From NCBI GenBank assembly GCA_020073165.1, contig JAIQFP010000006.1, positions 62,001 through 126,000 on the forward strand: 64,000 nt of DNA. The letters are read 5' to 3'. The number at the start of each line of letters is the position of its first letter. The first letter of the stretch is position 1. This stretch comes from Terriglobia bacterium. GTDB lineage: Bacteria > Acidobacteriota > Terriglobia > Terriglobales > Acidobacteriaceae. Both the position numbers and the translations under genes were made by a program. The notes beneath the pieces were generated by a model. It worked only from the letters and a program-made list of their open reading frames with translations, did not search any database and had not been told where the DNA came from. Shown here piece by piece: positions 5,721-12,741 of the stretch.

Positions 5721-5845
5721 AGGTTTCTCTCGGAGAAGGTTTCGAACCCGGGTGCGATCCCACGCACTGGCGCGCCCGGTCCAAATGCCGGTAAACAGAG
5801 TAACAAAAATCGTGCCTGGTGTTCAGCAGGAGAGTGATGCCAGAC

Positions 5846-6253
5846 TCAAGCGCATTGGTCGCGCCAGTCCCCGATTTCCTTCAGGCCTTCGGCGCGGGTC
5901 TGCTCAAACAGCCGGACGCGATGGCGGGTGTGCTCAAATTCGTGGATATCGGCCCAGACCTCCGCCTGCCAGGGCTCGTCATGGACCGCCGACTCGCCAC
6001 AGGTCGCGCACCGGGTATGCAGCTTGCGAACGATTCGAACCGGGACCGTCGTCTGCGGCAATTCGATAAATATGCAGCGCACTTCCAGGATGTCCTCGTT
6101 GTCCCCGATAACGTGCTCGTAGCGCAAAAGGTAGCCGAACCCCAGCTTGCGGGCTTCCACTTCGGCCTCGGCGCGGGTATGGAAGGGGCCATACTCGGCC
6201 CGCAATTGCTCGGTAGAGTCACAGGCCATCCAGAAGGTTTCTTTGTACGCCAT
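5846..6253 (-). CDS. Conserved hypothetical protein with CxxC and His-rich end
   Basis: The 135-residue soluble protein begins MAYKETFWMACDS. It has an alpha-beta-looking N-terminal half (EYGPFHTRAEAEVEARKLGFGYLL) and then CATCGESAVHDEPW followed by HEFEHTRHRVRLFE. The CxxC plus histidines could bind a metal, which is inference. The family is not recognised. Residue composition and the lack of low-complexity sequence make it a credible gene. The gene ends close to the window's small membrane protein gene, on the same strand. Confidence 0.5.
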   Translation of the reverse strand: MAYKETFWMACDSTEQLRAEYGPFHTRAEAEVEARKLGFGYLLRYEHVIGDNEDILEVRCIFIELPQTTVPVRIVRKLHTRCATCGESAVHDEPWQAEVWADIHEFEHTRHRVRLFEQTRAEGLKEIGDWRDQCA

Positions 6254-6553
6254 CGCCTACCTCGCGGATCGCCCTTCACTGCCCTGCAGACGAGTCCTTG
6301 GACAACACCCCTTTCTTAACTGCAATTCGAATGCCGCTCAAGTCCATCCATGCCGTTGTGAACCAAGGGTTTAGATCGACTCCAAGGGCGGGATGACAGC
6401 TTCATGCAAGCTTTTGCAGCGTTTTCCCGGTTTGCTGCCCTTGCACCGCACTCGGGGTGCGCTGTTCGCTACTTGGCGGCTTCCCGCAGCCTGCATTACC
6501 ATGGCCTTTAATTGGGGCCCATCTACCCTGTTTGGGAAGGGGCATCGAGGTTC
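6254..6553. other. Intergenic region, no gene seen
   Basis: These 300 bases lie between two divergently transcribed genes, so promoters for both are expected here. No convincing -35/-10 pair, riboswitch, repeat or terminator stood out by eye. Confidence 0.4.
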
Positions 6554-7213
6554 ATGGGTCAACGCCGGGAGCCACGGAAAACTGTGTCACTCCCCGTCCG
6601 CATCTTCGGCACCGACGTCCACGGACGCCCCTTCTCGGAGAACGTTTCCACCCTCAACGTCAGCCGCGACGGGGCCGCCCTCAGCGGCGTCCAAGCGGAA
6701 ATCAAGGTCGGGGAGATCATCGGCCTCACCTACGGCAAGAACAAAGGCCGGTTCCGCGTCACGTGGGTGGGTCAGCCTGCCACACCACAAATTGGCCGCG
6801 TCGGCTTACTCAATGTGTCACCGGCAAAACCCCTCTGGGATTTCCCTCTGCCGGAGCCTTCGCTGGATGAATTCCGGCGCCACTCCATGGGAGCGGAACG
6901 ACGCAAGCACACCCGCTTGAAATGCGTGAACTCGGTGGAATTGCAACCTGGAGGCGCCGCCGCTCCGATCTGGGGCAAAGCCGTCGATCTTAGTATGGGC
7001 GGCTGTTTCGTCGAGATGCCCATCCCGCTCCCCGTGGGCACCAAGCTCAAGCTCGGACTCTGGGTCAAAGAAACCAAGCTCTGGGCCACCGCCAAGGTCG
7101 TCAACAGTCGGCCTGGCTTCGGCATCGGAATCGAGTTCACCGAAATGTCCCCCGAAGACGCCGAACGCCTGAAGCAGTTCCTCCAAGGTATGACCCGCAT
7201 TCCCCTGAAATAA
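6554..7213 (+). CDS. Tandem PilZ-domain protein
   Basis: The 219-residue protein carries two PilZ-like modules. The first (about 3-80) has an RREPRK basic start, NVSRDGAAL and RFRVTWVG. The second (about 115-205) has RRKHTR, DLSMGGCFVE and a closing GFGIGIEF strand. RxxxR plus (D/N)xSxxG is the c-di-GMP binding signature. Both modules keep recognisable versions, the second closer to consensus. PilZ proteins act as c-di-GMP receptors, so this is a possible effector of the nearby GGDEF protein. ATG 6554 (GAGG upstream) is preferred over the in-frame ATG at 6512 because it starts right at the first module. Confidence 0.75.
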   Translation: MGQRREPRKTVSLPVRIFGTDVHGRPFSENVSTLNVSRDGAALSGVQAEIKVGEIIGLTYGKNKGRFRVTWVGQPATPQIGRVGLLNVSPAKPLWDFPLPEPSLDEFRRHSMGAERRKHTRLKCVNSVELQPGGAAAPIWGKAVDLSMGGCFVEMPIPLPVGTKLKLGLWVKETKLWATAKVVNSRPGFGIGIEFTEMSPEDAERLKQFLQGMTRIPLK

Positions 7214-7408
7214 CCTCTGGGTCGGAACCGGAGCTGGGTCACTCGGATATCCGGTTCTGAGTGTATCCCCTGCGCGACTCCGTAGTTGACCTGGCGCGCG
7301 AGGTCTATCCGGTTCATGGGCTTACACGCTGATCATCAATTGAGCCACTGTGCATTGCGGCAAATGACCAAGCGGGAGTAAACCGCCTGCAGCACAGGAG
7401 TCTCAAAC

Positions 7409-8068
7409 ATGTGGCGGAAAGCATGCGCGATATTAGTCTTGGCAGTTACAGCCCAGGCACAGAACCAGGCTCCGGCTACAGGAGCTCAGTCCAACCTCGG
7501 CATTGCAGGGGTAGCGCCGCGGATCCAGGTGAATCGTTACTACACCGAACTTCGGCGTGCCACAACCGAAGACATCGTTGTAGTACTGATCTTGCAGAAG
7601 GATTTTGTGGATTTTCTGACGACGCCGGCATCGCCCGTCCCCGGGATCCTACCGGTTGCGCTGGAACTGCAACCTGCAGAAGGGTTGCGCCCATCGAAGC
7701 TTCGTTATCCGAAGGCACACAAGAAGAAGTTTGCTTTCGCGGCCGATCAAATCCCGGTGTACGGTGCGGTCTGGTTCCCTATTCAGCTCAGACTAAAAGC
7801 AGAGCAGGACGCGCCGCTGGGGCAACAAGTCCTGGTGGGCAAGCTTACTTATCAGACTGTCAATGACGGAGGTGTATCCGCACTCCAGCAGGTGGAAGTG
7901 CAAATCCCGATCACCGTTGTGAATCACCGTTCACACGCCAGCAGAGACAAGGACTGGCCCTTCACCCGCATCTCTGGTGGACAGATGGCGCTCATTATCG
8001 TCCTTGCGATAGTCCTGTCACCAGTTCTAGTTCCACTTTGCACCGTTGCCTTTAACGGCTGCGGCTAG
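7409..8068 (+). CDS. Membrane-anchored protein with a DsbD-alpha-like domain
   Basis: The 219-residue protein has an N-terminal signal peptide (MWRKACAILVLAVTAQA) and a C-terminal hydrophobic helix (about 192-215). The middle (about 70-170) resembles the N-terminal immunoglobulin-like domain of DsbD-type thiol-disulfide transporters: PVALELQPAEGLRPSKLRYP, then AVWFPIQLRLKAEQDAPLGQQ. In DsbD this domain carries a redox cysteine pair. Here the domain has no cysteine, so it is likely a structural relative, not a reductant carrier. It should face the periplasm, tethered at its C terminus. No partner genes are adjacent. Confidence 0.5.
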   Translation: MWRKACAILVLAVTAQAQNQAPATGAQSNLGIAGVAPRIQVNRYYTELRRATTEDIVVVLILQKDFVDFLTTPASPVPGILPVALELQPAEGLRPSKLRYPKAHKKKFAFAADQIPVYGAVWFPIQLRLKAEQDAPLGQQVLVGKLTYQTVNDGGVSALQQVEVQIPITVVNHRSHASRDKDWPFTRISGGQMALIIVLAIVLSPVLVPLCTVAFNGCG

Positions 8069-8101
8069 TGCTGACCGGCCAATGGACAGAGCATGCGAGT
8101 C

Positions 8102-8563
8102 CTAGTTTTCTCTCCCGTGCGCAACCCGCAGTGCCACCACATTGGCGCCTGCGCTGACTTCTCCCATGCCCGGCGACCCGTTCAGACAGCGTTCCAGCGC
8201 GGCTGAAAGATACAGGTGGCGCACCGGCTTGGTGAGGTAGGCCTGTGCCCCAAAAGAGGCTGCTCGGCGCACCTGCCTCGGGTCATCCACCCCGGAACAC
8301 ATGATGACTTTTAAGTCAGGTTGGAGCTTGCGCAGGCTCCGCAAAGTCTTCAGGCCGTCCATGCCCGGCATTTGCAGGTCCAGCAACACGACCGCCGGAG
8401 CGCAGCCGTCGCGCACCCGCTGCAGGGCCTCGCTCCCGTTGCTGGCGGTCTCGACCTGGTAGGAGTCCAACTCCAGCAAGACTCGCAGATAGCGCAGCAT
8501 CTCCGGCGAGTCATCTACGATTAAGACGGTGGCTTTGGCCCGATTGCATTCAGCAACCAACAT
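8102..8563 (-). CDS. Single-domain response regulator
   Basis: The 153-residue protein consists of one receiver domain (about 12-130) and a short tail. The acidic pair is in VLIVDDS (17-18), the phospho-acceptor aspartate in VVLLDLQMPG (D62), and the switch lysine in YLTKPV. No output domain follows. Sequence around MLRYLRVLLELDSYQVETAS is very close to the receiver of the NtrC-type regulator at 37342, so the two look like paralogues and may answer to related kinases. No kinase gene is next to it. Confidence 0.8.
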   Translation of the reverse strand: MLVAECNRAKATVLIVDDSPEMLRYLRVLLELDSYQVETASNGSEALQRVRDGCAPAVVLLDLQMPGMDGLKTLRSLRKLQPDLKVIMCSGVDDPRQVRRAASFGAQAYLTKPVRHLYLSAALERCLNGSPGMGEVSAGANVVALRVAHGREN

Positions 8564-9246
8564 AGGCGGAACAAGACCGCTTCCCTTCTGGGCCGCATGT
8601 GGCGCAGTCCCGAGTGCTGAGGGCCAGTTCTAAACCCTTCTTGGCCGGACCCTGCCTCAAGCTCTTCTCGTCCTGTGTTCTCGCCTCCGATCGCACAGTT
8701 CCTGATTGAGCACAAGCTCGGCACACGTCCAACGGGGACTCATTGGGCAACACCCTGGGACTCGTTTGGCCATTCGTTCACAGGTCTCATGTCTCTCGGG
8801 AGGAGCGGTCCAATGGTCAACCGCCCTAGAATGGCAAGCTGCCTCCGGAGCCGGTACTGCCCTCCCACCCTCCGGAATAACTGAGACTGCGAAGGACTCC
8901 GGGCTGTGTACGCCGCCTTGGGATTTTCGTCAACTGATTTTGCGATCACCGAATATTCCGATTTTTCAAGAAGATGCCGGACATCCACAGCTCCCTGCCC
9001 TGCGCGCAGTGCAGCTAGCCGCACCCGCCCATCTTGAGACCGCTCGCAGCGCGCAACTGTCGGGGATTTCAACCATTGCCAATGTCGCTTTGCCCATGCT
9101 TGCAAAGCCGGCCAGCGCTGTGAAAAAACGCCTGAAGGTGTGTCCGGCAAGTCATTCCGGGAGGCAGCTTTTACAGGAACCGCGCATTCTTTCTCCGCTG
9201 CGTTCGACGCCACGCCGTGGCTTCTCCAGCGGCGACAAGAGATGCA
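8564..9246. other. Long intergenic stretch without a supported gene
   Basis: Open frames exist on both strands but none shows a recognisable domain or a convincing start. The stretch lies between the lone receiver gene and the end of the orphan HTH pair. Nothing repetitive or structured was recognised. A decayed gene remains possible. Confidence 0.4.
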
Positions 9247-9519
9247 CTACACAGAATGAGCCACCACGGCGGCCAATTCCTGGGTTTCGCGCTGTATCCC
9301 GAGTTCTTCGACCCAGTGGGCTCCGCCGTGGCTGGCTACGTAGAGTGCCAGTTCCAGCCGACTCCACACCCCCAGCTTGTCGAAGGTGTTGCGCAGATAG
9401 TTCTTCACCACCTGCTCCGTAGTGCCGATCACTTCCGCAATCTCGCGGTTGGTGAGGCCCTCCCACACCAGCGTGGCGATTTGCATTTCCTTGGCGGTTA
9501 GCCGGTCACGTGGTTGCAT
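9247..9519 (-). CDS. Orphan LuxR-type HTH protein, second gene of pair A
   Basis: The 90-residue protein is little more than a LuxR/NarL-type DNA-binding domain: LTAKEMQIATLVWEGLTNREIAEVIG followed by TTEQVVKNYLRNTFDKLGVWSRLELALYV. There is no receiver or sensor domain. It overlaps the end of the upstream HTH gene by 22 bases, so the two are probably translationally coupled and may form a heterodimer (inference). Its closest visible relative is the second gene of pair B at 22247-22480, which shares NREVADEIGTTEHVVKNYLR. Confidence 0.75.
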   Translation of the reverse strand: MQPRDRLTAKEMQIATLVWEGLTNREIAEVIGTTEQVVKNYLRNTFDKLGVWSRLELALYVASHGGAHWVEELGIQRETQELAAVVAHSV

Positions 9520-9740
9520 GATTCCATCTCCTCTTTCATGAACATTGCGGTCGCCAGTTTCACCCGCTTGCGGCCATCCCGGATGCCGGCGCGCAGGAAC
9601 AAGGTACGCAAATGTTGCTTTACCGTTCGCGGGCTGATGTTCAACTGCGCTGCGATTTCCTTATTGCTGCACCCCTGCACGAGCAGCTTAAGGACCTCTT
9701 CGTCCCGTTGCGTAATCTTGATCTCGCTCAGACTCGTCAT
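9498..9740 (-). CDS. Orphan LuxR-type HTH protein, first gene of pair A
   Basis: The 80-residue protein is a stand-alone LuxR-type helix-turn-helix: ITQRDEEVLKLLVQGCSNKEIAAQLN, then ISPRTVKQHLRTLFLRAGI and KRVKLATAMF. It starts at ATG 9740 with GAGGAG about 6 bases upstream. It is the first gene of an overlapping two-gene operon. The pair is repeated at 22.2-22.7 kb with the same order and the same RTVK / KRVKLAT landmarks. An IS1595-family element is inserted 54 bases upstream of its start codon, probably separating it from its original promoter. Confidence 0.75.
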   Translation of the reverse strand: MTSLSEIKITQRDEEVLKLLVQGCSNKEIAAQLNISPRTVKQHLRTLFLRAGIRDGRKRVKLATAMFMKEEMESCNHVTG

Positions 9741-9793
9741 GGTCTCTCCTCACTCATCTGGGGTTGCATCGCTCAATCGCGGCCGCACTCCTA

Positions 9794-9801
9794 CAACAGC
9801 A
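9794..9801. repeat. Left target-site duplication of the IS1595-family element
   Basis: The octamer CAACAGCA lies immediately before the left inverted repeat and recurs exactly at 11767-11774, immediately after the right one. Eight bases is the duplication length typical of the IS1595 family. Confidence 0.9.
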
Positions 9802-9827
9802 GGTAATTATCCCTTGACATCACGTTA
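9802..9827 (+). repeat. Left terminal inverted repeat of the IS1595-family element
   Basis: It pairs with the reverse complement of 11741-11766. The outer 16 bases match exactly, then two mismatches (CA against GG), then TCACGT matches, then one mismatch in the last two positions. It also contains the TTGACA -35 box of the transposase promoter. Confidence 0.9.
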
Positions 9828-9842
9828 GCATTTTGCTAGCAT
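9814..9842 (+). promoter_or_regulatory. Sigma-70-type promoter of the transposase, nearly leaderless
   Basis: A perfect TTGACA (9814-9819) lies 17 bases before TAGCAT (9837-9842; four of six bases match TATAAT). The expected start of transcription, about 9848-9850, falls only a few bases before the ATG at 9852. The mRNA would therefore have almost no leader and no room for a Shine-Dalgarno site. The spacer contains the small inverted repeat TAGCA-TTT-TGCTA (9826-9838), and GTAGCTAC follows the -10 box; either could be an operator. Confidence 0.6.
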
Positions 9843-9851
9843 GTAGCTACT

Positions 9852-10823
9852 ATGAACCGCAGGCAGACGATTCCAAAGCACTTACGGTACACAATCACTG
9901 ACTTTAACCGTCAGTTTCCCGATGACAATGCCTGCTTTGAGCATCTCCGGGAACAGCGTTTTCCTGATGGAATTGCATACTGCCAAACGTGCAAACAGGA
10001 GCGCCAGCACCACCGTGTAAAGGGCCGTCCGGTTTATGCCTGCGATGAATGCCTAACGCAGATTTCTCCTATGGCCGGGACGATCTTTGAGCACAGCAGC
10101 ACGTCGCTGCGACTCTGGTACTACGCTATGTACCTCATGGCTTCCACGCGCTGCGGAATCTCAGCAAAGCAGATTCAGCGCGAAACCGGAGTGACCTATA
10201 AGACCGCTTGGCGGATGTTCCGCCAGATTCGCTCGTTGCTGTCCGAACCTGACATGCAACTGGAGGGAGAAGCGGTGGAAGTAGACGAAGCATACTTCGG
10301 TGGCAAGCGGAAGAACGGCGGCGGCCGTAGACTTCGCACGGACAAGGGAGAAAAATACAAGACCGTCGTGATGGGCATGGTCGAGCGCAAGGGTCGTGTC
10401 ATTGCCAAGACAGTTCCCAATGCCAGTGGTGCAACTCTACTGAGCAACGTGAAGGAATGCATTCTGCCCAAGAGCACGATCTTCACCGATGAACTGCCGT
10501 CGTATCACGGCATCCCGCACATGAAGGCCGGGTATGATCACAAGCGCATCAATCACAGTTCCAAGGTGTACGTCATGGGCAACGTTCACACGAACACGAT
10601 TGAAGGATTTTGGTCGCTAGTGAAGCGGGGAATTGGCGGGGTCTACCATCAGGTTTCGCAAAAGTATTTGCAGAGCTACTTGGATGAGTATTCGTTCAGG
10701 TACAACCGGAGGGATCAGGGGAACTTAATTTTTACTTCGCTTTTGAAGCGCGTGGCTGAGATGGCTGCGCTGCCCGCCTCAGCAAATCGCGGAATGACGC
10801 CTTCGCAAGAGGTGCCATTTTAG
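9852..10823 (+). CDS. IS1595-family transposase
   Basis: The protein has 323 residues. An N-terminal zinc ribbon uses CxxC pairs at about C44/C47 and C64/C67 (YCQTCKQ, ACDECL). The catalytic core shows the first Asp in EVDEAYFGGKRK (D145), the second in FTDELPSYHG (D213), and the last motif HTNTIEGFWSLVKRG (N248, E251, K258). This is the DD(N)E pattern with a nearby lysine that typifies the IS1595 family. The frame is intact with no internal stop, so the protein is probably active. Translation seems to start on a nearly leaderless message. Its last 92 bases overlap a possible small gene on the other strand. Confidence 0.92.
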   Translation: MNRRQTIPKHLRYTITDFNRQFPDDNACFEHLREQRFPDGIAYCQTCKQERQHHRVKGRPVYACDECLTQISPMAGTIFEHSSTSLRLWYYAMYLMASTRCGISAKQIQRETGVTYKTAWRMFRQIRSLLSEPDMQLEGEAVEVDEAYFGGKRKNGGGRRLRTDKGEKYKTVVMGMVERKGRVIAKTVPNASGATLLSNVKECILPKSTIFTDELPSYHGIPHMKAGYDHKRINHSSKVYVMGNVHTNTIEGFWSLVKRGIGGVYHQVSQKYLQSYLDEYSFRYNRRDQGNLIFTSLLKRVAEMAALPASANRGMTPSQEVPF

Positions 10824-10908
10824 CCGCGACTTCTGCCGATGGCTTGAAATTTCGATTCGCAACGGGTCGTTCGCTGCTACCTTGCCGGGATGAGCGTATG
10901 CCCGCCAT
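10732..10908 (-). CDS. Possible 58-aa protein overlapping the transposase gene tail to tail
   Basis: On the minus strand ATG 10908 opens a 58-codon frame (MAGIRSSRQGSSERPVANRN... ending SQPRASKAK). It carries a KASFRDLLRRAAQP segment that looks like a conserved helix. Its 3' part overlaps the end of the transposase gene by 92 bases. It lies within the mobile element, downstream of the 246-aa passenger gene on the same strand. It may be a real small passenger protein or only a shadow of the transposase codons; no function can be assigned. Confidence 0.3.
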   Translation of the reverse strand: MAGIRSSRQGSSERPVANRNFKPSAEVAAKMAPLAKASFRDLLRRAAQPSQPRASKAK

Positions 10909-10978
10909 ACTTCCGTCAATATAGCACGGCGGAGGAAATGCCGGAAGCGTGCGCACAGACATGGCTTGGTACGCCGCA

Positions 10979-11719
10979 CTACTTGAAGAATCGCGCAAAA
11001 GCTGGCAGCACTGTGTCAGCGACAAATTGGTGTATTTCGAAAAGATCATCGATCCCAAGATCAAGCTCGTCTTTGGCAGTTCCAAACCTCAAGTCGAATC
11101 CAGGCGATGGATTGAGGTTCACTTTGTCCTTCATGGCAAGCGGAATTTTCACTATGCCGCAATTGTCGATATGTTCACCTTCGAACGACGCATTTGGAAC
11201 GTTGATTCTAAGAAACTCGTCAGAGATCACAGCATGATGTCCAATGTGCCTGTGCTTGTCGATGTTCCAGAGCTTGTTGAGACGCCAGAGATGAGTACTC
11301 TTGTACAAATCCCCTGCGTTATACGGCTGAAAAGACTTCATGAGGGCGACTGCTGCGTCGGGAATGCCATAGGTAGACTTGACAATCTTCAGTTGTGTCT
11401 CAAGCGAATCCTTCTCTGTAATCGGGAAGCAGATGTGGCTTCCAGGTTGACTAGTTGTGAGGGTCGCCAACTGCCATGCGAGGTGATCAAGGCAAGCACG
11501 CAGACGACACACGAAATCCCCGGCGGTAAGGACAATATCCAAGATAGGCTGATCCTCGGGATACTGAATCCTGACGACGTACCAGCCATTTTCAACATCG
11601 TCTGTAGCGGTAACGTTGGGCGAGTACGAACGTTTCAGTGCACTCATTCTTTCATCAAGCAATTCGAGGTGCTTTTTCGCCCATCGAAGATTGAGTTCGG
11701 GATCAGCCAGACTTGGCAT
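10979..11719 (-). CDS. Passenger protein of unknown function in the IS1595-family element
   Basis: The 246-residue soluble, mostly helical-looking protein is not recognised. Landmarks are CLDHLAWQLATL (about 76-87), HLWRLNKLWNIDKHRHIGHH (about 143-162) and a C-terminal LDLGIDDLFEIHQFV. The DHLAWQLA and IDKHR segments give the impression of a helical bundle, but no catalytic site is obvious. Because it lies between the element's inverted repeats, pointing toward the transposase, it moves with it. Base composition here is visibly less GC-rich than in flanking genes, as expected for transferred DNA. The start at ATG 11719 has only a weak ribosome-binding site. A plus-strand frame over the same bases was rejected. 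Confidence 0.6.
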   Translation of the reverse strand: MPSLADPELNLRWAKKHLELLDERMSALKRSYSPNVTATDDVENGWYVVRIQYPEDQPILDIVLTAGDFVCRLRACLDHLAWQLATLTTSQPGSHICFPITEKDSLETQLKIVKSTYGIPDAAVALMKSFQPYNAGDLYKSTHLWRLNKLWNIDKHRHIGHHAVISDEFLRINVPNASFEGEHIDNCGIVKIPLAMKDKVNLNPSPGFDLRFGTAKDELDLGIDDLFEIHQFVADTVLPAFARFFK

Positions 11720-11740
11720 TGCAGCCCGAATGATACCAGA

Positions 11741-11766
11741 TTACGTGACCTCAAGGGATAATTACC
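11741..11766 (-). repeat. Right terminal inverted repeat of the IS1595-family element
   Basis: The reverse complement begins GGTAATTATCCCTTGA and matches the left repeat at 23 of 26 positions. The -35-like hexamer is TTGAGG here, not TTGACA, so this end lacks the strong promoter element of the left end. Confidence 0.9.
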
Positions 11767-11774
11767 CAACAGCA
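11767..11774. repeat. Right target-site duplication of the IS1595-family element
   Basis: CAACAGCA, an exact copy of 9794-9801, directly follows the right inverted repeat. Confidence 0.9.
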
Positions 11775-12069
11775 ACTCTTTCGCCAAACCTTCGCTATTC
11801 CGCACCAAGGTACAAATCCCAATGAATGGGCGGGCTTACAGACAAAGGTCGCAGTACAAGAGCGGAAATCGTCCAACTCTGATTGGGACTACGCGTCCCA
11901 CATCGGGCCAAATGAGTCGGTAGTGGCCAACGTGCGGTGGTTGTGCCACCCCGCCCTTGTATTACGGGGAACCGCTTATAAGGTACTGGCTACTGAAACC
12001 GCACTTCCACCCCGCTTCAATACGCGCTAAGGTTTACCTGAATAGATTCGGCACTGAGAGGCCCACAGC
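11775..12069. other. Former upstream region of HTH pair A, now between the IS element and a two-component operon
   Basis: No gene is seen. Two small hairpins are visible: TGGGAC-TACGC-GTCCCA at 11884-11900 and GGTGG-TTGTG-CCACC at 11936-11950. A TATAAG hexamer at 11977-11982 could be a -10 box for the operon that follows, but no matching -35 was found. Before the insertion this DNA lay directly upstream of the orphan HTH pair. Confidence 0.4.
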
Positions 12070-12741
12070 GTGCGTGTGCTGATTGTCGAAGACGAACCTC
12101 GGCTGGCGGAAAACATAGCTCGCAGTCTGCGCGAGAGTGCCGGGTTCGCGGTGGACGTGGCCACCGACGGCCAGGAAGGACTCTTCCTGGCGGAGTCGAA
12201 CGTCTACGACGCAGTGCTGTTGGATCTGATGTTGCCCAAACTGGACGGAATGCAACTACTCACCCGCATTCGCCAGGCCGGTCATCGGACTCCTGTGCTG
12301 GTGGTGACCGCCCGCGATGACAAAGAATCGGTGGTCGCCCTGCTCAATGCTGGCGCCGACGACTACCTCACCAAGCCATTCGACTTGGGCGAGTTGTTGG
12401 CCCGCACCAAGGCGCTCATCCGTCGGGGCAAAGGCCAGCCCTCACCCGTCCTGACCATCGGCGACCTGGAACTGAATGCGGTGAGCCGCACTGTCCAGCG
12501 CGCCGGAAAATATGTTGCCCTCACGGCGATGGAGTACCGGGTGCTCGAATACCTGGCGCATCGCCCGCGCGCCGTGGTTTCCAAGACCGAACTGCTCGAA
12601 CATCTTTACGACTACAACTGGGAGAAGTTCAGCAACGTAATCGAGGTGTACATTTCCGGACTGCGGAGGAAACTCAACGACGGCTCCGCCCGCCAATTGA
12701 TTCATACCGTCCGGGGCCAGGGATACATCCTGCAGGATTGA
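12070..12741 (+). CDS. OmpR-family response regulator
   Basis: The 223-residue protein starts at GTG 12070 with GAGAGG upstream. The receiver domain (about 1-115) has the acidic residues in VEDE, the phospho-acceptor in VLLDLMLPK (D52) and the lysine in YLTKPF. A winged-helix output domain (about 125-222) contains LTAMEYRVLEYLA and VIEVYISGLRRKL and ends HTVRGQGYILQD. The kinase gene begins 2 bases after its stop. Together they precede an RND efflux operon, which is the likely target, as in CusR/S- or QseB/C-type arrangements. The inducing signal is unknown. Confidence 0.93.
   Translation: MRVLIVEDEPRLAENIARSLRESAGFAVDVATDGQEGLFLAESNVYDAVLLDLMLPKLDGMQLLTRIRQAGHRTPVLVVTARDDKESVVALLNAGADDYLTKPFDLGELLARTKALIRRGKGQPSPVLTIGDLELNAVSRTVQRAGKYVALTAMEYRVLEYLAHRPRAVVSKTELLEHLYDYNWEKFSNVIEVYISGLRRKLNDGSARQLIHTVRGQGYILQD

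Follow-up and report, generated by a model that had tools for sequence, protein, structure and literature searches.

What does a gene of no recognised family do inside a complete transposon, and is its presence there more than an accident? The question is raised by an element at positions 9802-11766 (1,965 bp, both ends present) of a 64,000-nt stretch of contig JAIQFP010000006.1 from a Terriglobia bacterium (Acidobacteriota); this whole stretch is referred to as the window. The element is a complete IS1595-family transporter insertion sequence (tIS), in which a transposase module and one cargo gene, the passenger, lie between 26-bp repeats. By sequence comparison the passenger belongs to an unnamed, wide family that recurs on mobile DNA, alignments of related elements point to exchange of their cargo, and the predicted fold of the passenger resembles that of HEPN domains.

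A complete IS1595 element and its passenger

The two terminal inverted repeats differ at positions 17, 18 and 25 and agree at the other 23 of their 26 positions, and the outer 24 nt were reported by a repeat finder as an inverted pair with 92% complementarity. The duplication CAACAGCA is exact on both sides of the element; a target duplication of 8 bp is the rule in the IS1595 family. The transposase matched DDE_Tnp_IS1595 (PF12762; 8.9e-44) and the NCBIfam model transpos_IS1595 (NF033547; 2.8e-61), with a zinc ribbon and a DDE domain above the Pfam cut-off and HTH matches below it. Transposase and passenger are convergent. A 270-aa mirror open reading frame (ORF) on the opposite strand was considered as the passenger and rejected, since homology, and not length alone, favours the 246-aa strand.

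An initial sequence-only reading of the locus had described the repeats, the exact duplication, the intact transposase and the leftward 246-codon gene, all of which can be read directly in the sequence, and its assignment to IS1595 is borne out by the two profile matches. It had also regarded the passenger as a cargo gene of no recognised family. The gene indeed lies inside the repeats, and no Pfam, NCBIfam, PHROG or PADLOC family was matched above chance level (for Pfam, only WCX was listed, E 0.19). For 37 members of the passenger family, Pfam and NCBIfam yielded scattered single weak matches only, and the PDB gave one match by sequence (a tail tip protein, E 0.059) and none by profile. The proposed recent movement of the element agrees with the intact duplication and the intact ORFs but with nothing further, and no second copy was found in its own 4.6-Mb genome. 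There, the passenger has a single match, and the transposase has one full match plus five distant IS1595 transposases with 36-41% identity.

Relatives of the passenger were found at 13 places in 12 of 396 genomes of an Acidobacteriota sample (own genome counted). A scan of a species collection resulted in 40 loci, which by their titles belong to Acidobacteriota, Nitrospira, Betaproteobacteria, Gemmatimonadota, a Planctomycetota genus, Chloroflexota, Actinomycetota and others. After merging two loci present in both sets, 51 distinct loci were obtained. The passenger was the sole query, so the scan was blind to the transposase. An IS1595 transposase was nevertheless present in the fetched flank of 6 of the 13 phylum places and 16 of the 40 collection loci, corresponding to 21 of the 51 distinct loci. 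For a gene picked at random, about 0.002 such transposases are expected at a distance of up to 2 kb, based on 97 IS1595 transposases in 253 Mb from 60 genomes of the window's bacterial family. At one locus (L056) the transposase is 1.85 kb from the passenger, with another gene between; the 3.6-kb IS1595 element noted there (L056, 6137-7120) carries a DUF3800 protein plus the passenger-family member.

Pairs of passenger and transposase were called complete when repeats matching at 16 or more of 22 positions and an exact 8-bp duplication were found. This holds for 12 of the 21 pairs, namely the window element, L023, L025, L031, L033, L034, L039, L046, L052, L055, L056 and L059. Two further elements, L119 from the window's genus and L252, raise the number of complete passenger-bearing elements to 14. 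The orientation of the 21 pairs is convergent in 10 cases and codirectional in 11. A lone repeat-like end (0-4 mismatches in 17) lies beside the transposase-less passengers L026, L028, L029 and L036, and the passenger reading frames of L028 and L029 are broken.

These counts bear on the possibility that the passenger is one chance capture and that its association with the transposase is functionally meaningless. A capture of this kind would fit the single copy of the window element, as well as the low identity (22-23%) between the window passenger and the members that accompany the nearest compared transposases (74-77% identical). It is contradicted by the 14 complete elements with very different transposases, compared to an expected adjacency of about 0.002 per gene, and by one genome in which the same backbone carries two different family members. 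We regard it as very improbable.

Exchange of cargo among IS1595 elements

The identity of the passengers was compared with that of the transposases in 20 pairs (190 comparisons), resulting in a Spearman coefficient of 0.05 (p 0.46). By this measure, cargo and transposase are decoupled. The passengers of the window and L034 are 23% identical and their transposases 77%, while L020 and L033 share passengers of 51% and transposases of 31% identity. In genome G084, the elements L025 and L031 align over 1,268 bp at 91% identity across the transposase and its tail. Beyond this point the alignment shows no similarity, and the passengers of the two elements, both members of the family, share 22% identity. 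A faster-evolving cargo was rejected as the cause of this edge, since it would not give such an abrupt boundary.

A similar boundary was found in the window element, which is 72-75% identical to L033, L034 and L052 over element nt 1-1131 or 1132. This shared module stops approximately 110 bp past the transposase stop codon; in the cargo no similar stretch exceeds 39 nt, and similarity resumes in the last 25 nt. Among 66 oriented elements, 61 pairs align over 800 nt or more of the transposase module; the similarity stops before the far end in all but one of them (60 pairs). The sole full-length pair consists of two cargo-free elements. For L033 and L034 the similarity extends partway into the passenger (52% identical), and here the cargo may have been inherited. 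Cargo exchange among IS1595 elements is well supported by these alignments. The earlier view that the cargo was kept during transposition holds insofar as the gene lies inside the element; the main pattern between elements is exchange and not retention.

In the 60 genomes of the bacterial family, PF12762 matches were found at 97 places in 34 genomes. Of these places 77 were examined, whereas 20 partial, weak or contig-end matches were left out by hand. Repeats together with an exact 8-bp duplication were detected at 58 of the 77 loci. When the right half of each locus was reversed as a chance control, none of the 77 had repeats of at least 14 of 20 plus an exact duplication. The complete elements have a median length of 2,278 bp, and 56 of the 58 exceed 1.3 kb, which leaves room for cargo; only L171 and L183 are about 1 kb long. 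Recurrent cargo comprised proteasome-like Ntn-hydrolase candidates (8 elements), the passenger family (5), DUF3800-like proteins (4), an unknown family (4), trypsin-like proteins (3) and a zinc-ribbon-like ORF (3), where the cluster names derive from Pfam matches of some members and partly from reading the sequences. Other Pfam matches listed among 66 cargo proteins included PIN, Zeta toxin, SocA/Panacea, RelA_SpoT and DUF433. The cargo is poorly annotated, since 31 Pfam families were found for it compared to 126 for flanking control ORFs.

This survey also bears on an accessory or regulatory role of the passenger in IS1595 transposition, for example by binding the ends or limiting the copy number. 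The transposase in the flank of 21 of the 51 passenger loci, the position of both genes within one repeat pair and the single copy of the passenger in its own genome would be consistent with such a role. However, 53 of the 58 surveyed complete elements lack the passenger family and mostly have other ORFs in its place, the family is also found in integron-like cassettes, phage and plasmids, and passenger and transposase identities are uncorrelated. An accessory protein therefore seems quite unlikely.

Several other cargo genes were noted in the survey. The proteasome-like Ntn-hydrolase cargo was found in L107 (3500-4303, own genome, identical with L172), L146, L150, L161, L164, L165, L166 and L173, and Pfam Proteasome was matched by 3 of the 66 scanned cargo proteins. 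In a further element of the own genome (L105, 402-1961) the cargo comprises a PIN-like protein (PF18478) and its DUF433 partner, which resemble a toxin-antitoxin pair, as well as a small ORF that has a relative in L130. In G084, L095 (4081-5142) contains a Zeta-toxin-like cargo gene, and its transposase is about 70% identical to that of the window.

Between the transposase and the 3′ end of the passenger, a conserved module was detected, whose predicted fold consists of two hairpins with 4 of 24 pairs changed on both sides. The 110 bp after the window transposase are well conserved in L033, L034 and L052, and blocks of 17 to 18 bases are identical in all four elements. The 17-base core GAGCGTATGCCCGCCAT was found in 2 of 200 genomes of the bacterial family, the own genome and G546. 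The locus in the latter (L252) has a transposase 37% identical to that of the window, other repeat ends, a passenger of the family and a module that is 94% identical over 49 nt. A covariance model matched five elements (window, L033, L034, L052 and L252), all with the passenger family; at E ≤ 1 the remaining 76 IS1595 loci gave no match. As the model was built from the same five elements, the absence elsewhere is the informative part. The core was also found in the viral contigs L254 and L255, without a transposase or passenger match and with unlike flanks, which was attributed to chance.

The module opens with the TGA stop codon of the passenger in L034, L052, L252 and L036, the last of which lacks a transposase and retains only the module-side end. 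In L033 the module starts 6 bases past the passenger stop, and in the window element this edge has drifted. The module is not general, since it is absent from L023, an element with a passenger and a related transposase. On the opposite strand, weak model matches on the module itself were obtained for L252 (E 0.0001) and L034 (0.051), and model matches in L033, L036 and L059 (E 0.37-0.96) are near chance. No intrinsic terminator was found at the module, and Rfam gave no match at E ≤ 1 within 9750-11820.

Possible roles of the module are those of a spacer, a site of cargo exchange or an RNA partner. In an extended form, IS1595 elements would be one-gene 'cassette transposons' with a fixed transposase module and an exchangeable cargo bay. 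The bay of one group would be bounded at the cargo stop codon by the two-hairpin module, which is common to elements with very different transposases and would serve as exchange site or as RNA antidote of a new class of HEPN-like toxins. This combination is rather doubtful.

Vehicles, predicted fold and possible role of the passenger

Members of the passenger family were also found on other mobile DNA. In L048 the gene is flanked by two attC-like sites (1486-1581 and 2477-2577), and a phage-integrase domain is encoded upstream; in L037 an attC-like site (5836-5901) directly follows the gene, together with an integrase with the SAM-like domain PF13495; in both cases the sites were identified by pattern and fold. 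L041 is likewise preceded by an integrase with a PF13495-type domain. L063 and L067 adjoin DDE_Tnp_1 transposases, and plasmids of Mesorhizobium and Mycolicibacterium carry family members. Gp32 of the Gordonia phage Samba is a member as well (E 8e-36 for the profile when eight proteins were scanned); it is encoded on the strand opposite to the surrounding tail genes, and the serine integrase is found six genes further along. When L063 was used as query, a second phage search gave no match at E ≤ 0.001.

In L024 the passenger is followed, after 81 bp and in the same orientation, by an ApeA gene (PF18739, 4e-18; PF18862, 4.4e-14). The HEPN domain of ApeA was found in just 2 of 199 phylum genomes. 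In this region (5869-10319) the family member lies between the ApeA gene and a 682-aa ORF, all on the same strand, in a defence-operon-like arrangement. L040 follows a DUF5677 gene. No neighbour was common to many of the passenger loci without an IS1595 transposase.

Structures were predicted for the window protein (pLDDT 85.7, pTM 0.82) and the member L040 (pLDDT 88.4, pTM 0.85). Both models begin with a long helix and a hairpin; a second long helix follows, then an insert, helix 3, a stretch containing strands and the final helix. For L040 realigned to PDB chains, HEPN domains were found on ranks 1 and 2 (4nqf with Z 10.4, 3.2 Å and 127 residues; 2hsb with Z 9.8, 3.1 Å and 120 residues), followed by chains with Z values of 7.0 and 6.8. 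The HEPN toxin 7ae6 ranked first for the window model (Z 7.9, 3.8 Å, 130 residues). In a viral structure library one standout match was found, A0A514TZW7 (E 3.7e-8, TM 0.68), which shares with Samba gp32 the length of 275 aa, an agreement of length alone.

D78, K155 and H156 are invariant in all 37 aligned members, followed by H79 (34 of 37), R74 and D154 (33 of 37 each). H156, part of the sequence DKHR, is located just after helix 3, and D78 in helix 2 (residues 59-85 of the model). In helix 1 the window protein deviates with N10 and W13, where 34 and 36 of the 37 members have K and R, respectively.

According to the available excerpts of PMC3710099, helix 3 of HEPN domains ends with an Rx4-6H motif, helix 2 contains an acidic residue, and an insert separates these two helices; some HEPN families have lost the R or use another H. 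The passenger is similar in its predicted helix order, the insert between helices 2 and 3, the histidine ending helix 3 and the acidic residue of helix 2. It differs in the missing arginine 5-7 residues before the histidine, in the strand-containing stretch between helices 3 and 4 and in the lack of profile similarity to PF05168. An R-x4-H sequence is present in helix 2 (R74, H79), which is the wrong helix for the HEPN motif. We infer a resemblance to HEPN domains from the layout, and the protein is called HEPN-like and not filed as HEPN, since the arginine of Rx4-6H is missing and there is no profile link.

On these grounds it appears somewhat probable that the cargo of this complete IS1595 tIS is a divergent HEPN-like four-helix effector, which would be RNA-cutting or growth-arresting and act in abortive infection or addiction. 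A defence or addiction role of the passenger is plausible. The active site would be formed by H156 at the end of helix 3 and D78, usually with R74, in helix 2, and the protein would act as an RNA-cutting or otherwise growth-arresting effector, whose benefit to element or host would pay for its carriage. The whole element would be moved as a unit by its own transposase, and a recombination step would exchange the cargo in the segment that extends from the transposase-module tail to the right repeat.

Several results weigh against an HEPN-like effector carried by these elements. No complete ends were found for 9 of the 21 pairs (L020, L022, L047, L051, L060, L061, L065, L069 and L071), no IS1595 transposase is present in the fetched flank of 30 of the 51 passenger loci, and the ApeA and phage settings are single cases each. 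A designed helix bundle reached Z 7.5 for the window model, near the 7.9 of the HEPN toxin, and Z values below 13 between helical bundles may reflect a common arrangement alone. For neither model did Foldseek give a match in the PDB at E ≤ 0.001. Only 9 of the 37 members have a basic residue at H-5 to H-7, which departs from Rx4-6H. A comparison by hhalign with 27 phylum HEPN sequences (PF05168) resulted in a probability of 0.16%, and a profile comparison with DUF5677 found no similarity; membership in HEPN or DUF5677 by profile was therefore rejected. Links to HEPN can be detected by this method, since a four-member unknown cargo family (L113, L128, L141 and L186) matched HEPN with a probability of 89%. 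Among the Pfam families listed for the 37 members there was no HEPN match at E ≤ 1. An enrichment of defence genes in IS1595 cargo was dropped as well: PADLOC gave 25 families for the 66 cargo proteins and 83 for 66 length-matched flanking ORFs, counted as families, several of whose models are near-duplicates. Finally, no good passenger promoter was found at the right end of the window element.

A clearly less probable explanation is an ordinary niche-adaptive protein, with a ligand-binding or metabolic function and a helical bundle, that is neither toxic nor defensive. It would account for the merely moderate fold resemblance to HEPN, the absence of a profile link, the lack of a neighbour common to many transposase-less loci and the missing PADLOC match of the window protein. 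The invariant D, K and H, the ApeA neighbour and the range of vehicles (IS1595 elements, integron-like cassettes, phage and plasmids) are less consistent with such a protein.

Layout of the locus and relation to known systems

The features of the element are listed in the table below.

Table. Features of the IS1595 element and its target site, with positions in the window
Feature	Position	Strand	Basis
Left target-site duplication copy, CAACAGCA	9794-9801	.	sequence
Left terminal inverted repeat	9802-9827	+	sequence, repeat finding
Module common to the window element, L033, L034 and L052 (72-75% nt identity)	9802-10933	+	
Promoter-like site for the transposase, TTGACA-17-TAGCAT, TG ahead of the second hexamer	9814-9842	+	
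IS1595 transposase, 323 aa	9852-10823	+	ORF, profile matches
Two-hairpin conserved module between transposase and passenger 3′ end	10855-10954	.	
Core of the two-hairpin module, GAGCGTATGCCCGCCAT	10892-10908		
Passenger gene, 246 aa, HEPN-like family (predicted)	10979-11719	-	ORF, alignment, predicted structure
Passenger codons D154-K155-H156-R157	11249-11260	-	computed by hand from ORF start
Passenger codons R74 to D78	11486-11500	-	computed by hand from ORF start
Right terminal inverted repeat	11741-11766	-	
Right target-site duplication copy, CAACAGCA	11767-11774	.	sequence

The first hexamer of the promoter-like site falls within the left repeat; in the element region 3 such sites were seen compared to 1.5 expected from shuffles. 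Inward TTGAC is present at many ends of the surveyed complete elements: 52 of the 58 transposase ends and 37 of the 58 cargo ends match TTGACA in five or six bases. At both ends −10-like hexamers at the right spacing were above shuffles, on the cargo side as scored at 47 ends. The terminal repeats of IS1595 elements may serve as promoters.

The element is located in the intergenic space between a leftward ORF pair (9247-9740), which we take to be of LuxR type, and a rightward ORF (12070-12741), presumably a response regulator. Homologues of the passenger in the same position of relatives without transposase and repeats would have spoken against a cargo gene; none of seven response-regulator loci of relatives (2.6-3.7 kb, with intergenic DNA too diverged to show an empty site) contains a family member. 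With the downstream flank as query, orthologs of the response regulator were found in relatives, but the 8 best matches in other genomes begin at base 292 or later, so that an empty site could not be read.

The term tIS and ISNha5 as an IS1595 example are given in the available excerpts of PMC11891212, and tISCpe8 and MTnSag1 in those of PMC5704250, so that tIS passengers, IS1595 included, have already been published. The window element is similar to these in its transposase, terminal repeats, target duplication and passenger gene. It differs in that its passenger is of an unnamed family, the alignments point to cargo swaps on the same backbone, and nearly all complete elements surveyed in this bacterial family are roomy for cargo. 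No paper on IS1595 cargo in Acidobacteriota was found in the literature searched, which lies mostly outside subscription journals.

The HEPN superfamily offers toxins of HEPN/MNT modules and Abi proteins for comparison (excerpts of PMC3710099; see also PMC7641770). Unlike HEPN/MNT modules, the window element contains no MNT gene. An HEPN protein encoded by an integron cassette (PDB 3jrt; excerpt of PMC3710099) is similar in being an HEPN-type gene as mobile cargo, and the passenger relatives L048 and L037 are found beside attC-like sites. Its family keeps Rx4-6H, which the passenger family lacks, and the window copy is on a transposon without an integron. AbiF with its RNA antitoxin (excerpt of PMC12373285) is a possible analogy, in that mobile DNA carries a structured element next to the gene of an HEPN-like protein. 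In contrast to AbiF, the structured module is 3′ of the passenger gene and present with a minority of members, and Abi_2 was not among the 14 Pfam families listed for the 37 members or among those for the window protein.

IS1595 passengers appear as individual examples in the available parts of the published descriptions, whereas here 56 of 58 complete elements of one bacterial family are roomy for cargo. If the passenger is an HEPN-like effector, small transposons would spread solitary defence or addiction genes, and searches for defence islands would miss such genes because each sits alone. The unnamed family, recurring on IS1595 elements, integron-like cassettes, phage and plasmids, provides a defined target with three invariant residues.

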